33,455 bases of DNA. Source: a virus. The position numbers and the translations under genes were made by a program. Of this stretch, positions 10,921 through 19,813 are shown in pieces (within the stretch, counting starts at the first letter, position 1; each line of letters begins with the position of its first letter). The notes under the pieces were generated by a model. The model worked only from the letters and a program-made list of their open reading frames with translations. It did not search any database and was not told the origin of the DNA. The stretch lies in the IMG/VR virus record IMGVR_UViG_3300030329_002232, positions 1,096 to 34,550 of that record, one strand, 5' to 3'.

Positions 10921-11619
10921 ATGAAGAAAATGAATAGAGAAACTTGGTTGAATAGAATGGCGCGCGAATTAAATCGCCTCGTCTTCAAACCAGCAGGCAT
11001 CGCCCTGAATCTCAGAAAGGTCAAGATCAGCGTAGGCTACCCTCCAAAGGGCGGAGCCTCAAAGCATGGCAAGACCATTGGCGTATGTTTCAAGCGTGTT
11101 TGCTCAGATGCAAATGTGAACGAGATATTCATTAATCCTTGCCTTGATAAAAGTCAGGTCACAAAAGTGGCAGGTGTTTTAGTCCACGAATTGATACACG
11201 CAGTAGAAGACTGTCAGGGACACGGCCCATCATTTCGCAGAATGGCGTTAGCTTGTGGCCTTACAGGTAAAATGACAGCAACAACAGAGACTGAAGAGCT
11301 TGCAGAAACCATCAAGCAGATAGAAAAGAAGATTGGCCCATATCCACACAAAAAGCTCGACTATGAACAGTACAGAAAGCCTCAGACCACAAGGAATCTT
11401 AAAATAGAATGTCCTAAATGCGCTGATACAGACCCTTACTTTGTACGCATGAGCAGAACCATGTTTGATAAAGGTGCTCCTTCTTGCGGCGTATGTGGTA
11501 CAAAGATGACTGACGACATCGCATCTGCAAAGGATAACGAAGAACTTGGAGGTGATGAGTGGGACAAAAGATTTCCGAACTTAGATAAGAGATGGAAAAA
11601 CCTTCGTTTTGGTCATTAG
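10921..11619 (+). CDS. SprT-like zinc metallopeptidase-fold protein
   Basis: Starting at 10921 (AGGAGTTAAAA upstream), the product has 232 residues. It contains VLVHELIHAVEDCQGHGPSF, the SprT signature with HExxH zinc ligands and a following GHG-x-x-F, and then a zinc-ribbon with CPKC and CGVCG cysteine pairs near the C-terminus. SprT/Spartan-fold proteins bind DNA and may cleave DNA-protein crosslinks; many phages encode homologues of unknown role. It has its own promoter and terminator. An in-frame ATG 11 codons earlier, at the predicted 5' end of the transcript, is an alternative start. Confidence 0.88.
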   Translation: MKKMNRETWLNRMARELNRLVFKPAGIALNLRKVKISVGYPPKGGASKHGKTIGVCFKRVCSDANVNEIFINPCLDKSQVTKVAGVLVHELIHAVEDCQGHGPSFRRMALACGLTGKMTATTETEELAETIKQIEKKIGPYPHKKLDYEQYRKPQTTRNLKIECPKCADTDPYFVRMSRTMFDKGAPSCGVCGTKMTDDIASAKDNEELGGDEWDKRFPNLDKRWKNLRFGH

Positions 11620-11671
11620 TAAAATAAGCGCAGTATGGTACTGCATAGGACGTTTAAACACCCTAAAAGAG

Positions 11672-11697
11672 AGGCCCAGAAATGGGCCTTTTTTTTA
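11672..11697 (+). terminator. Rho-independent terminator
   Basis: Stem AGGCCC with GGGCCT, loop AGAAAT, then eight T residues. It terminates the SprT-like transcript and lies just before the next promoter. Confidence 0.9.
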
Positions 11698-11709
11698 TTT
11701 ATTATTTAC

Positions 11710-11754
11710 TTGCATCATATATGTTATAAGTGTTATAATCCTTTAGTTATGATA
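11710..11754 (+). promoter_or_regulatory. Promoter with TTAGTTATGATA element
   Basis: TTGCAT (11710-11715), 18-base spacer, TATAAT (11734-11739), then TTTAGTTATGATA. The ATG at 11749 is in frame with the YodL-like gene downstream, as in the SprT cassette. Confidence 0.82.
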
Positions 11755-11784
11755 CACAATAATACAACAACACAGGAGTTAAAC

Positions 11785-12219
11785 ATGCTAAAAGTAGTAG
11801 TTAAATATCAAAATACAAATATTCATCGTGATGCCTTGATGGGCTGGGATTGGCTTAAAAAGTATTGGAATATGGGCCGTACATTCATTCAGGACAACTA
11901 TAGCAATGTCGCTGTATTTGAGCTTCCTACAGAGCATCCTTGGTATAGTAATAATGGAGTATGCGAACAACTATATGATAAATTTAATCGCATTGCCACC
12001 TCAGACCTTAAAACCTCCAATGGTTTTGATGCACAGTACATTCAAGACGCTACTCATGATGACCCTAAAGTCAAAGGCTTTATTGGTCACACCTCAATGT
12101 CTGTTGGCGACATAGTAACTATCATGGACACTATTACATGCGAGACTAAAGTATATTTTTGTGACAGCGTTGGCTTTAAAGATATTACTGACGAACAGGT
12201 ACATTACTATACAGTATAA
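11785..12219 (+). CDS. YodL-like domain protein
   Basis: The ATG at 11785 follows AGGAGTTAAAC. The 144-residue product ends with the block GHTSMSVGDIVTIMD and VYFCDSVGFKDIT, which matches the YodL-like pattern (H-S/T-S-M-S-V-G-D-hydrophobic, then Y-x-C/V-D-S-x-G-F). This domain is found in many mobile-element proteins of unknown function. The N-terminal 90 residues are aromatic-rich and unassigned. It is a monocistronic early-type unit with its own promoter and strong terminator. No catalytic role is known. Confidence 0.78.
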   Translation: MLKVVVKYQNTNIHRDALMGWDWLKKYWNMGRTFIQDNYSNVAVFELPTEHPWYSNNGVCEQLYDKFNRIATSDLKTSNGFDAQYIQDATHDDPKVKGFIGHTSMSVGDIVTIMDTITCETKVYFCDSVGFKDITDEQVHYYTV

Positions 12220-14440: not shown

Positions 14441-14698
14441 TTATCTATCTTTATAACTACCTCTAAGCCCTTTGCAGAATGTACAAATAACCTTAGTTAG
14501 CTTATAAGTAGGCAAATGATTATATCGTACACATCTTCCTGTGTGTCCTATCTCCCAGACATGCTCACAGTTAGGGCATAGCTTTAGCCTCTTTGTCTCC
14601 TTAGCATAGTGATTCTTACAGCCCGGCTCTCCTTTGTGCTCTCCCTGTTTATATCTCCTTGTGTACTGGTCTATGACCCATTGAATACTATCCCTCAT
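14441..14698 (-). CDS. Small zinc-ribbon-like protein
   Basis: This 85-residue protein has two C-x-x-C pairs (CPNC and CTFC) about 30 residues apart plus extra cysteines and histidines, suggesting a structural zinc site. It is basic throughout. It overlaps the resolvase gene by 11 bases and is the last gene of the replication/recombination operon, ending beside the origin-like region. A DNA- or RNA-binding role is plausible; no named family is recognised. Confidence 0.7.
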   Translation of the reverse strand: MRDSIQWVIDQYTRRYKQGEHKGEPGCKNHYAKETKRLKLCPNCEHVWEIGHTGRCVRYNHLPTYKLTKVICTFCKGLRGSYKDR

Positions 14699-15176
14699 CT
14701 TTCTGCATGAACCCTGTAGCTAATGGTGAATCACTTATATCAGGAGCTATCTCTCTGCACCAGTTAGCCAATAGTATAGCATCCGATGTCTTGAGTGTTA
14801 TCTTTATATTAGGGTATAAGCTCTGAGCTAAATGCTTGATGTGGTTCTTTCGCTTTGTCTTATCTTTAGGCATAGCTCCATAATATTTCATCCATTTCTG
14901 TGGAGGCACCTCTTTATACGGTACGCCGTGAGCGGCCAATATACCCAACCATTGTCCATAGTTCTTACCGAACTTAAATGTAGATGCTACTCCTTGGCCG
15001 GGCATACTGTGAACCTTCTCTATGATACAGAACATATTGACACAGTCCCATTTTGCATCCTTTATGACATCAGCCATATCCTTGACCGTATCAGGGCATT
15101 TAATGGCCTCTATATGACCATTATCTATAATAGCTATCCCTCCATTAACTCCGGGATCAATTCCTATGTTTATCAT
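14688..15176 (-). CDS. RuvC-like Holliday junction resolvase
   Basis: The 162-residue product has the RuvC/RNase H fold hallmarks: INIGIDPG with D7, FCIIEKVHSM with E53, and LKTSDAILLANW with D132, plus the characteristic FGKNYGQWLG and VPPQKWMKYYG segments. These acidic residues bind the catalytic metal ions. It would resolve branched recombination or replication intermediates before packaging. It is encoded downstream of the annealing protein in the same operon, fitting a recombination module. A degenerate paralogue is encoded at 30139-30546. Confidence 0.88.
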   Translation of the reverse strand: MINIGIDPGVNGGIAIIDNGHIEAIKCPDTVKDMADVIKDAKWDCVNMFCIIEKVHSMPGQGVASTFKFGKNYGQWLGILAAHGVPYKEVPPQKWMKYYGAMPKDKTKRKNHIKHLAQSLYPNIKITLKTSDAILLANWCREIAPDISDSPLATGFMQKDEG

Positions 15177-15601: not shown

Positions 15602-16525
15602 TTAAAATGGTACGTCTTCCCCTGTGTCAATCGTGTATTTAGGCTCTCCATTGTCCAGCGTTTGCTCTGCTATCCACCTTGCAACAGTTATCCTGTGTTT
15701 GCCATTCATCATCTGGTCATCACTATATATGTATTGCTTAGGTATCCAATACTGTTTGGTCTGATTTCCATCCTTATCATCAGCACCCTCTTTTTGATAG
15801 AACTCAGGAGGCACCATTAGAACGGCTTTTGCAGACTCTGTTATCTTTGTTAGGTTTTTAACCTCTACAGATTCGTCCTCTGGAGGCGTTCCCTGTTTTA
15901 AAGGTGTCTTAGTATCTATTTTCTGTGTTTCGTCATTTTTAGGGCTATTTTCAGCCTCATTTGCACGCTCCTGCCTTGCTATTCTATCTGCTATATCCTG
16001 AGCTGTCTTATTTGTAGAGGTAGGAGGCTGGGACGCGGTAGCTGTAGTTATGGGATCGGATGAGGAGCCATCCTGTCCGCTGTTCATTGAAGAACTGTCC
16101 CAGCCTTCTGGTTGCCAATCTCTGTCTACGTATCCATTGGCGTCAAGTACGGCCCAAAAATCTCCCATTGAATATAGGTCACGTCCAATACCATAATGGA
16201 CTGCGGCACGTTTAAAGGCGTCAGATGCTTGGCCTTTCTCGGCATCGACATCAGTCTCCGTGCCACAATCGCATTTATCAGTCACCTGTCCATCAGGCCA
16301 TGTCACCTTAATGGTACAGAACATGGTGTCCCCTTTGACTTTATAGTAGGCACTCCAATTATCCTTGCCTACAGCGCTATCAAGTCTGTCCATGACATAC
16401 CGGGCATCTACATACCCTAACATACGGGCTCTTGTGTTTGACCTGTTCTTAAAGCCTACTCTGAATTTTATCCTGTTCTTTGGAGTTGGTTCATTTAAGG
16501 CATTTATTACATCTAAATTCGACAT
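15602..16525 (-). CDS. Rad52/Sak-type single-strand annealing protein
   Basis: The start at 16525 (MSNLDVINALNEP, AGGAGA six bases upstream) gives 307 residues. Residues about 15-110 match Rad52/Sak-family annealing proteins: RVGFKNRSNTRARMLGYVDA, YVMDRLDSAVGKDNWSAYY and QASDAFKRAAVHYGIGRDLY. These form rings that anneal complementary single strands in phage recombination. The C-terminal half is a low-complexity S/T/Q/E-rich linker and a conserved tail. It directly follows the Gp157-like gene, a common pairing in phage recombination modules. Confidence 0.85.
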   Translation of the reverse strand: MSNLDVINALNEPTPKNRIKFRVGFKNRSNTRARMLGYVDARYVMDRLDSAVGKDNWSAYYKVKGDTMFCTIKVTWPDGQVTDKCDCGTETDVDAEKGQASDAFKRAAVHYGIGRDLYSMGDFWAVLDANGYVDRDWQPEGWDSSSMNSGQDGSSSDPITTATASQPPTSTNKTAQDIADRIARQERANEAENSPKNDETQKIDTKTPLKQGTPPEDESVEVKNLTKITESAKAVLMVPPEFYQKEGADDKDGNQTKQYWIPKQYIYSDDQMMNGKHRITVARWIAEQTLDNGEPKYTIDTGEDVPF

Positions 16526-16526
16526 A

Positions 16527-17042
16527 TTAGTCTCCTGTTTTAATTGTAAATTTAACGTCACGCTCCTCAAGCACTACCCCATCAGGAACGTCACCTGTAT
16601 CTTTAATATATTTCATTATAGCTTTTTTATCCGGCTCATGCTTTGTAGTGACCCTTGTCAGCTCGGTCTTATCTCCCAAGTTCTTGAAAAATACAGCCCT
16701 ATCCTCAACGACCAACAACGGCTGTTGTTTGCGTATCTTCATTGTGCCATTTGGTAGCGTTTTTGTTTTTAGGTCAGGGTCGTTTAAAACCTGATAGCTA
16801 AAATATTGATACAAACGAGCCTGTAGGTCGTCTATCTTTCTTTGAATGTTATCACATTGCGTCTGTTGCCATTCTATTATCTTTTCACATTGACTACCTG
16901 CCTGCAAAGTAATATCCTGCATCTTTTCACGCTCTTTTTGAATAACGTATAAAATTGCATCTGCTTTCTCATCATTTATCTCTTCATCAGTTTGGTCTTC
17001 AGCCATTTGATAATGTAGATCATCTATAGTGTCAGCTATCAT
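16527..17042 (-). CDS. Gp157-like protein of a recombination module
   Basis: This 171-residue protein has a long coiled coil (QCEKIIEWQQTQCDNIQRKI) followed by TKTLPNGTMKIRKQQPLLVV and a KKAIMKYIKDTGDVPDGV stretch. This is the layout of siphovirus Gp157-family and Gam-like proteins, found beside single-strand annealing proteins and sometimes linked to blocking host nucleases. It is coupled by ATGA to the small basic gene upstream and lies 1 base from the annealing protein. The precise function is not established. Confidence 0.75.
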   Translation of the reverse strand: MIADTIDDLHYQMAEDQTDEEINDEKADAILYVIQKEREKMQDITLQAGSQCEKIIEWQQTQCDNIQRKIDDLQARLYQYFSYQVLNDPDLKTKTLPNGTMKIRKQQPLLVVEDRAVFFKNLGDKTELTRVTTKHEPDKKAIMKYIKDTGDVPDGVVLEERDVKFTIKTGD

Positions 17043-17221: not shown

Positions 17222-17581
17222 TCACTTATCAAGGTCTGTGAACAGCAGTCCCTGCCCATTACTGTCATGGCGCATTTTGTTTTGTGCGCTTATTAGCTTT
17301 GACCTTCGTCTTTCCATCACCAAAATACGCTCTCTCAAATTATCTATGGTAGACTCAAGCTCTTCTGGTGTCTTGGCGTAATAAAAACCTCTTGGGCCAC
17401 TTGCGATCGGTTTGCCCTCGTCACGCAATAGACCAACAGCCTGCCTAACGGCCAAGTCGGGAATGTTCCATAGTCGTTGCATCTGCCTTGATTTGATAGG
17501 CCTGTTTTGTGTGCTATTTAATTTTAAATAGTCACAAATCCTATCCTTGTGTAGTAGTGCGTCAGGACTGTGATTCGTCAT
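17222..17581 (-). CDS. Winged-helix DNA-binding protein
   Basis: From the ATG at 17581 (a TTG three codons earlier is the alternative) the product has 119 residues. NRPIKSRQMQRLWNIPDLAV followed by RQAVGLLRDEGKPIASGPRG is a clear helix-turn-helix with a wing, as in many phage regulators that occur beside recombination genes; a coiled coil (LESTIDNLRERILVMERR) follows, suggesting dimerisation. It may control this operon or assist replication. It overlaps the upstream gene by 20 bases. Confidence 0.75.
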   Translation of the reverse strand: MTNHSPDALLHKDRICDYLKLNSTQNRPIKSRQMQRLWNIPDLAVRQAVGLLRDEGKPIASGPRGFYYAKTPEELESTIDNLRERILVMERRRSKLISAQNKMRHDSNGQGLLFTDLDK

Positions 17582-17744
17582 GCTTGTCAATGTACTCTTG
17601 CATAAAGGCTTTCAAGACCTCGTTGCCTGAACGGTTATTCAGTTTGCACACACTTAGGAACTTGCTCCGTAGAACCCTATCGAGTCCGATGATCTGGAAC
17701 CTATGATCCTTGGTCTGCTTTTCTTTTTTGATTGTGTCTTGCAT
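17562..17744 (-). CDS. Ribbon-helix-helix (Arc/CopG-like) regulator
   Basis: This 60-residue protein follows the RHH pattern: a basic strand (DHRFQIIGLDRVLRSKFLSV), a turn (LNNRSGNEV) and a second helix (LKAFMQEYID). Such proteins dimerise and insert a beta-ribbon into the major groove. As one of the first genes of the leftward operon, near the divergent promoters at 17.95-18.05 kb, it is a candidate autoregulator. The call rests on pattern and length. Confidence 0.7.
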   Translation of the reverse strand: MQDTIKKEKQTKDHRFQIIGLDRVLRSKFLSVCKLNNRSGNEVLKAFMQEYIDKHDESQS

Positions 17745-17752
17745 TGTCTTTC

Positions 17753-17938
17753 CTATGTTATTATAATAATGACTATTAATATGAGCGCACCAACGACCAA
17801 CTGTCGTGGCCCCTCCTCAATTCCAGCTCGCTCAAAAACTACATCACCTGCAATGAACAGTATAAAACTTGAGCACGCTATCATTACAAGTGAGATGCTT
17901 AAAATGAACAAGTTGGCAATAATTTCATATATTAGCAT
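17753..17938 (-). CDS. Small two-span membrane protein
   Basis: The 61-residue product has two hydrophobic spans (about 3-30, IYEIIANLFILSISLVMIAC; about 47-61, LVVGALILIVIIII) around an acidic/basic loop with ERAGIEEGP. It is the first gene after the leftward promoter at 17946-17973. No family is recognised. It could be an early membrane-active protein, such as one involved in exclusion. Confidence 0.62.
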   Translation of the reverse strand: MLIYEIIANLFILSISLVMIACSSFILFIAGDVVFERAGIEEGPRQLVVGALILIVIIIIT

Positions 17939-17945
17939 ACCTCAT

Positions 17946-17973
17946 ATTAAATCATGTTATAATTGTATGTCAA
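17946..17973 (-). promoter_or_regulatory. Leftward promoter of the replication/recombination operon
   Basis: On the minus strand, TTGACA (17973-17968) is followed after 16 bases by TTTAAT (17951-17946), a good sigma70 promoter just upstream of the 17938 start. It is divergent from the rightward promoter at 18007. Its sequence differs from the TTGCAT/TTAGTTATGA class. Confidence 0.7.
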
Positions 17974-18006
17974 GTTATATTTGATTTATTTATTATAAAT
18001 AAGTTC

Positions 18007-18051: not shown

Positions 18052-18071
18052 AGATCAAAAAAGGAGTAAAA

Positions 18072-18470
18072 ATGTCATACATACAAAAATCAAAAATAAA
18101 AGCCCTCGTAAGGAAACTGGGTTTTAGGATAAGCCCAGAGTCATTTGATGGGATAAATAGGGCCATAGAGGGCTTAATAAAGGGTATGCTGAACAAGGTT
18201 GAGGCTGATGGCATGAAAACGCTAATGAACCAGCATACAGGCCAAGCACAGGCAAAGGTAGAGCAAAGTGAAAGCGTGGTTGGCAGAAAGTGTCAGAGGT
18301 GTTGCAATGTTGATGATGCTTTCTTATATAAAGCAAGGGATGAGCAACGATGGTTCTATGATGAGGTGGTGCGTTGTGGTAATGGTTACAGCAAAGGTAA
18401 AAAATATGATCCTCACTTTGCGACCAAGCAAGGTAGGGTCAATAATTTTAATGGAGTAAAAAAAGTATGA
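18072..18470 (+). CDS. Histone-fold-like protein with C-terminal cysteine cluster
   Basis: The ATG at 18072 follows AGGAGTAAAA. Residues about 5-56 (QKSKIKALVRKLGFRISPES, then a helix ending KVEADGMKTLMNQH) resemble the helix-loop-helix pattern of small bacterial/archaeal histone-fold proteins of the DUF1931-like type: K-S-x-V-K, G-x-R-I/V-S, a long central helix, and A-x-G-x-K-T-L. The C-terminal half has C74-x-x-C77-C78 and further cysteines (VVRCGNG), possibly a zinc site, with a lysine-rich end. It could bind or compact DNA. The similarity is by eye and needs a profile comparison. It is coupled by ATGA to the next gene. Confidence 0.65.
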   Translation: MSYIQKSKIKALVRKLGFRISPESFDGINRAIEGLIKGMLNKVEADGMKTLMNQHTGQAQAKVEQSESVVGRKCQRCCNVDDAFLYKARDEQRWFYDEVVRCGNGYSKGKKYDPHFATKQGRVNNFNGVKKV

Positions 18471-19813
18471 AAAACTCAATTAGAATGTTTGACCTTGAAA
18501 GGGTATTGACCTATCAAAGTGCCATGCCAGACAATTATTTTATGACACTACCTAATGGTCAAAAACACAGCATGAAGATGGAAAGCGTCATGCAAAGCAT
18601 TGAGCACAGCTACGATTGGAAATTAAATCAATGCACAGGCTCAACCTACAGCTTTGAAATCAACCCTGATATGTTAGAATATCAAGGCCTAAGCAATATG
18701 GGTGAAAACTTTGATTTTACATGCGCTGTAGATACCAAGTATTTACCGCAGGCCTTTGTAGAAAATCCTTACGTCATTAGCTATATTAATGTAATAGCCT
18801 CAAATTGTTTTTATCTTACATTGTTTAAAAGAGGGTGCATTGAAAAAGAGGATACAAAGATTGATGTTGCGAAGGTTAGCGAGGAAGATAGAAAGTATGC
18901 AGTATCGCAAACAGAAATACACGCCAATCAAATACTAAGGCAACTGTATCATTATTGGAAATGGTACAGGGAAGAGAGAAACCTATACATACACGACAAG
19001 GCCTTAGTGGACGACCTGATGGACACAGAATATCCTTGCCGCACAGATTGGCTGGTTGCGCCAAACGAATCAATGTATATCATGCTCCCTAAAAAAGTTA
19101 CTGACACAGATGGAAAAGACACAGAGCACCCATTTGAGGGCATGTATGTCAATCTGGAAGAATATGAAAACGATGACAAGCTAATCAGAATATATATGCC
19201 GTCAAGACCAGACAAAAAAGATCGTGACGTTGACCCATTAACTTACAATGGTCATTATTGGGAGCTTGTATTGAAACAGGGCATGAACATAGTTAAATCG
19301 GTAGATAACGCAGTCTTTAACTCTACACCTGTGTCTGATGATATAAATGAGTCTATGCATAAAATAATGAAATATTATACTTTGCTGGCTGTTCAGACGA
19401 TACTATACATCACAAGCGTTAATTCCGTTGTAACTTTTAGAGAGCCTGTGAAAAAAGACATTTCTGAAAACCGAAAAAGAAAGTTCATCAATAGGGAAGA
19501 AACTCAGGAAGACCATGCCGAGCTTGGCGGCGGCATCTACATAAACAACAGAATAGCTCGCACAGCCAACGCATCTAATGGCACAGCAACAAAGACAGGG
19601 CGAAAGCTAAACAAGCTTATTTTGGTCAGAGGTCACTTTGCAAAGTATTGGCTAAAAGACCCAAATAAAATAGCTAAACTAAAGCCTTACGAGATCATGG
19701 AAACAAAATATGATGACATGGGAAAACGCATGGTTGCATATAAAAAATACAAACAAAAGTTCTACAAGGGCAGAGGTGAAATAGTCGTGCCTAAAGAATA
19801 CATACTAAAATAG
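18467..19813 (+). CDS. 448-residue protein of unknown function
   Basis: This gene shares an ATGA junction with the histone-like gene and is the largest rightward gene. The N-terminal 300 residues are rich in tyrosine and charged residues and contain no recognised motif. The C-terminus has GRKLNKLILVRGHFAKYWL and ends KFYKGRGEIVVPKEYILK, distantly reminiscent of the V-R-G-H...K-G endings of AcrVA2-like proteins found in phages and plasmids; this resemblance is weak and the region between differs. It has no signal peptide or membrane span. An early host-takeover role is inferred only from its promoter class. Confidence 0.75.
   Translation: MKNSIRMFDLERVLTYQSAMPDNYFMTLPNGQKHSMKMESVMQSIEHSYDWKLNQCTGSTYSFEINPDMLEYQGLSNMGENFDFTCAVDTKYLPQAFVENPYVISYINVIASNCFYLTLFKRGCIEKEDTKIDVAKVSEEDRKYAVSQTEIHANQILRQLYHYWKWYREERNLYIHDKALVDDLMDTEYPCRTDWLVAPNESMYIMLPKKVTDTDGKDTEHPFEGMYVNLEEYENDDKLIRIYMPSRPDKKDRDVDPLTYNGHYWELVLKQGMNIVKSVDNAVFNSTPVSDDINESMHKIMKYYTLLAVQTILYITSVNSVVTFREPVKKDISENRKRKFINREETQEDHAELGGGIYINNRIARTANASNGTATKTGRKLNKLILVRGHFAKYWLKDPNKIAKLKPYEIMETKYDDMGKRMVAYKKYKQKFYKGRGEIVVPKEYILK

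Follow-up and report, generated by a model that had tools for sequence, protein, structure and literature searches.

Does a short gene lying beside the recombination genes of a tailed phage encode a histone, and what would a histone do there? The question is raised by a stretch of 33,455 nucleotides (the window) that spans nearly all of a 34,550-base IMG/VR virus record (IMGVR_UViG_3300030329_002232), in which a first-pass annotation, made from the letters alone, had proposed a phage-encoded histone-fold protein. That the gene belongs to a phage is well founded, as genes for terminase, major head protein, tape measure and endolysin surround it in what is an IMG/VR virus record. The reading frame runs from an ATG at 18072 to a TGA at 18468-18470 and gives a product of 132 aa, and its antisense is closed by stops, with no open frame through 18072-18470. 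Both the start and the sequence are kept in 30 IMG/VR loci (numbered with an L below where they have to be told apart). Over codons 1-57, dN/dS was 0.06-0.20 in seven pairs, i.e., purifying selection; of two further pairs, the very close L030/L032 (dS 0.05) gave 0.44 and the other was saturated. This is, in short, a real gene under selection. An early-type promoter had also been proposed for it, but the 10 promoter-like sites that we counted in the region are not above chance (7.0 +/- 2.6 in shuffles). The features discussed below are collected in Table 1.

Table 1. Features of the histone gene and its neighbourhood (window coordinates).
Feature	Coordinates	Strand	Basis
RuvC-like Holliday junction resolvase	14688..15176	-	
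Rad52/Erf-like single-strand annealing protein	15602..16525	-	
Mu Gam-like DNA end-protection protein	16527..17042	-	
Arc-like repressor, divergent neighbour	17562..17744	-	
Shine-Dalgarno AAGGAG, just 5' of the histone ATG	18061..18066	+	read directly
Phage histone gene, 132 aa	18072..18470	+	ORF, conservation, PDB match
Alpha3 histone fold, residues 1-57 (helices 6-15, 24-45, short turn 53-55)	18072..18242	+	AlphaFold2, structural superposition
Exchangeable C-terminal module, residues 58-132 (linker, Cys cluster, helix 82-108, basic tail)	18243..18467	+	
Cysteine cluster C-x-x-C-C (residues 74-78), possible site of a metal or a disulfide	18291..18305	+	
Helix of the C-terminal module (residues 82-108) that may link dimers to each other	18315..18395	+	AlphaFold2; putative role after PMC11390915
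448-aa ORF, overlaps histone stop (ATGA)	18467..19813	+	ORF

The motif on which the proposal was built (K-S-x-I-K ... R-I-S ... D-G-x-K-T-L) is present in the protein as described, and the case for a histone fold is carried by the sequence profile; the structure scores alone would be weak. With the single sequence as query against the PDB, HTkC came first (E 8e-5), followed by HLp and HBb, and with family profiles the best E-values were 1e-8 for HTkC, 6e-7 for HBb and 4e-5 for HLp. Only four PDB sequences fell below E 1e-3 with the family profile, all of them alpha3 histones, so that, judged from these profiles, the likeness to histones is far above chance. AlphaFold2 predicts a short helix, a long one and a last helix of a single turn, with pLDDT of about 88-92 across residues 11-50; it is this third helix, cut to about one turn (H53-55), that makes the fold an alpha3 one. 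The structural search of the model (Foldseek and VIA-align) returned the same three proteins at the top, HLp (Z 7.8), HTkC (7.6) and HBb (7.1), although the Foldseek E-value was modest (6.6e-3) and a Z below 8 is weak by itself. The rmsd is 1.4 A for the 56 residues of the model superposed on HLp and lies within 1.4-2.2 A (56-61 residues) for the three proteins, while eukaryotic and archaeal histones rank below the alpha3 histones, with a Z of about 5.5. Sequence profile, predicted helix topology and superposition thus all back the histone fold, and the outcome that would have spoken against it, a non-histone fold in residues 5-56, was looked for and the histone fold held.

Other identities were considered and set aside. 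A DUF1931 pseudodimer is ruled out by the single histone fold, not two, in the 132 aa, and a ZZ histone by a fold that starts at residue 1 with the Cys cluster C-terminal and no ZZ finger at the N-terminus. Weak profile matches to the RNA polymerase alpha C-terminal domain (E 0.07-0.3) were taken as chance or generic helix similarity. The matches to the Pfam families jr-ZPR1, Med16_C, FeoC and Zn_ribbon_3CxxC were likewise rejected, being weak, below the cut-off where shown and inconsistent between members. Searches of Pfam, NCBIfam and PHROGs gave no significant family for the protein; the Pfam miss is not evidence against a histone, as a 55-residue stretch of HTkC, a histone of solved structure, likewise scores under the cut-off (17.2 vs. 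21.4 bits).

The positions by which bacterial histones touch DNA can be read directly from the structural alignment, which is gap-free to HLp (window residue n corresponds to HLp n+7). S7, K8, K10 and T50 align with HLp S14, K15, K17 and T57, and S7, K8, K10, S21, K49 and T50 with HBb S9, K10, K12, S24, K52 and T53, the HLp and HBb positions being reported DNA contacts (PMC12701072, PMC11317129). Conservation was counted over 27 viral family members. K49, T50 and R30 are the same in all (27/27), position 10 is K in 25 and R in the other two, and the contact positions are among the best conserved of the family, with S7, K8, K10, K49 and T50 kept across relatives. The net charge ranges from +2 to +16, and since the most distant relatives are weakly basic (+2, +3), DNA binding may not be uniform in the family. 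The clamp that closes the face-to-face tetramer in HLp (R55/D62; PMC12701072) has no counterpart here: its R and D are replaced by M48 and H55, each in 27/27, the RxTxxxD motif is absent, and the protein thus lacks this mark of a face-to-face histone.

In the C-terminal half, AlphaFold2 places a helix at 82-107/108 after an uncertain linker (residues 62-71 have pLDDT under 50), with the relative placement of fold and C-terminal half undefined in the model (pTM 0.40); the histone fold accounted for most of what the structure searches returned, so that this part was barely probed. The window protein has a C module of a 'long' type, common to L003, L007 and L008. With L009 it shares 91% identity in the histone fold but 26% in the C module; with L007 and L008 the identity of the C module is 74%. 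The long-module group was named from the C module before the tree was built. On the fold tree its four proteins need four label changes, at least three of them forced by supported branches, the exact number of exchange events being uncertain because the fold is short (57 columns). A single clade for the four is rejected on the fold tree by the AU test (p = 8e-5), whereas in the C-module tree they are one group (support 100/99). The DNA of the pairs L008/L013 and L007/L011 tells the same: each pair matches at 80-100% across the fold and resumes its similarity downstream at about +420, and between these flanks only the segment of about +180 to +400 has been replaced. The C-terminal half therefore appears to be a cassette that phages exchange while the histone fold in front of it stays conserved, and the partner or assembly of the histone is thus probably set by this module. 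Separately, L033 and L034 carry a third, apparently unrelated C-terminal sequence behind the histone fold.

A cysteine-rich extension that might bind zinc was also part of the original proposal. The cysteines are there (C74, C77, C78 and C102), and C74 and C77 are kept or lost jointly, both being present in 21 of the 27 members and neither in the other six, which suggests a joint role, metal or disulfide. Zinc binding is plausible but not general; it remains a guess, because C74 and C77 are dispensable in part of the family.

The gene is an accessory one in a variable slot. It is found in 5 of 22 records (that of the window and 21 sharing its terminase, records that may be incomplete), the window's own being one of the five, and three close relatives without it have other small genes in the same slot, flanked by the repressor operon and the tail gene. 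What follows on the 3' side changes from phage to phage (DUF7694 proteins, an integrase-like protein and others). It is this patchy presence, with the variable slot contents and the changing downstream gene, that marks the histone as accessory. The Arc-like repressor adjoins it in L008, L009, L010, L013 and L024 as well. The 448-aa ORF that follows in the window has no relative in Pfam, PHROGs or viral_contigs.

Several observations on the surroundings deserve mention in their own right. A tyrosine-integrase-like protein lies directly 3' of the histone in L030 (6312-7466) and L032 (Pfam Phage_integrase, E 3e-4, below the cut-off), suggesting that some histone carriers are temperate. Beside the Arc-like repressor, a small hydrophobic ORF at 17753-17938 (- strand; MLIYEIIANLFILSIS...) is kept in the histone-less L140, L141 and L142; the ORF at 17703-17984 (+) is probably spurious, the opposite-strand one being that which is conserved. 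Elsewhere in the window there is a YodL-like gene (11635-12219, +), of which a look-alike (L141, 812-1285) sits in the histone slot of the relative G005, so that small genes seem to move between slots. A SprT-like metalloprotease-type protein is encoded at 10936-11619 (+), in the phage's accessory region, and no tRNA genes were found.

Three family members used as queries had no match among isolated phage genomes, and two scans of bacterial and archaeal genome_contigs for the histone found none, and hence no prophage host. The terminase is under 60% identical to that of every isolated phage (about 31% at best among the matches listed). From the relatives of terminase and recombinase and from the contig sets, our guess would be a marine origin.

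What could such a protein do? The explanation that we favour, and regard as reasonably probable, is a phage histone that binds DNA non-specifically as a dimer and, with its dimers linked by their C-terminal helices, can bridge or compact DNA during infection. Two chains would pair via the histone fold, and the dimer would hold the DNA backbone non-specifically, using the N-terminal end of helix 1 (S7, K8, K10) and loop 2 (K49, T50), by analogy with the bacterial histones HBb and HLp. As the clamp residues for face-to-face tetramers are missing, the C-terminal module would take over the joining of dimers by way of helix 82-108, with a metal or disulfide at C74/C77 perhaps adding stability, and the resulting particle may bridge or compact two DNA segments. 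Presumably made in the infected cell from an accessory slot adjoining recombination and repressor genes, the histone might organise or shield replicating phage DNA, or alter phage or host transcription. Along these lines we tentatively picture an accessory histone of tailed phages in which the DNA-binding fold stays constant and the assembly or partner module is swapped like phage specificity domains. If so, the C-terminal module would set the job of the histone, under pressure from the host or competing phages.

The same gene could be read as a histone-fold regulator, a dimer acting at a few sites on phage or host transcription while the C module recognises a partner such as RNA polymerase, a repressor or a host factor. 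The divergent Arc-like repressor gene, the accessory slot and a C module exchanged behind a conserved fold would all suit it, but the DNA-contact positions match those of the non-specific binders HBb and HLp and no partner is known, and we consider it rather unlikely. Less likely again is that the protein serves in counter-defence, coating incoming or replicating phage DNA against host nucleases; it does adjoin a Mu Gam-like end protector and recombination genes, and its accessory distribution and module turnover resemble those of host-facing genes, yet accessory status alone is non-specific and no defence partner was identified.

Two further readings we think very improbable. DUF1931 proteins have retained the fold yet lack residues for DNA binding (PMC12701072), so the fold might have been borrowed here with no DNA binding at all, against which stands the conservation of precisely the contact positions. 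Least likely, given where the gene lies, is a virion protein packaged with the genome in the manner of Marseillevirus-type viruses. The protein is small and basic with a histone fold, and packaged giant-virus histones are cited in PMC11390915, but the head module does not include the gene, which is on the strand opposite to the structural genes of the window, and most terminase relatives lack it.

A histone in a bacterial virus had been expected to be notable. The histone is genuine, but its novelty was partly pre-empted: phage histones had already been named from AlphaFold models (Schwab 2024, PMC11390915), so that finding one more phage with a histone is no novelty by itself. Beyond that paper we found only a later mention of phage histones, and the papers found amount to one structure-prediction survey, with no experiment. 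Neither the accessory slot nor the C-module exchange turned up in these papers, and both deserve to be followed, the exchange being newly seen here; PMC11390915 mentions no cysteines, and no module exchange was met in it. The family offers gene contexts, close phages with and without the histone gene, and naturally occurring pairs whose histone folds agree and whose C-terminal modules differ. Phage histone function, and the control of assembly by the C-terminal half, thereby become directly testable with small synthetic genes.

By its published description, the phage histone class, a category of alpha3 histones with the type sequence A0A2E7QIQ9, is the one that the window protein fits. As described in PMC11390915, these proteins share with it an N-terminal alpha3 fold with a C-terminal helix, an origin in tailed dsDNA phages, the lack of the RxTxxxD motif, a highly conserved side arginine (R30 here) and K10 and K49 (matched by number, in a numbering frame that may differ); their bridging tetramer via the C-terminal domains is a prediction of that paper. 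Against that description the window protein has a longer C module, the Cys cluster and a basic 24-residue tail. Two unnamed viral proteins in BFVD, both already in UniProt, are related by Foldseek, A0A516LIY4 (E 7e-14, 67% identity over 132 columns), apparently a long-type relative, and A0A516M1G1 (E 3e-5, 28% identity), apparently a short-type one. ZZ histones also combine an alpha3 fold with a Cys-containing extra part, but their finger is N-terminal, with C4 and C2H2 sites, whereas the CxxCC of the window is C-terminal and absent in some relatives. HTkC (9F2C) and HLp (9QT0/9QT1) have the fold, about 30% identity and the helix-1 and loop-2 contact positions in common with the window protein, which differs from these face-to-face histones in lacking the R...D clamp and in its extra C-terminal module. 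HBb (Bd0055; 8FVX, 8CMP, 9EZZ, 9F0E) shares the fold and the six contacts aligned above; its R51/D58 become M48/H55 in the window protein, which adds a C-terminal extension. HBb is essential and chromosomal, whereas the histone of the window is viral and accessory.
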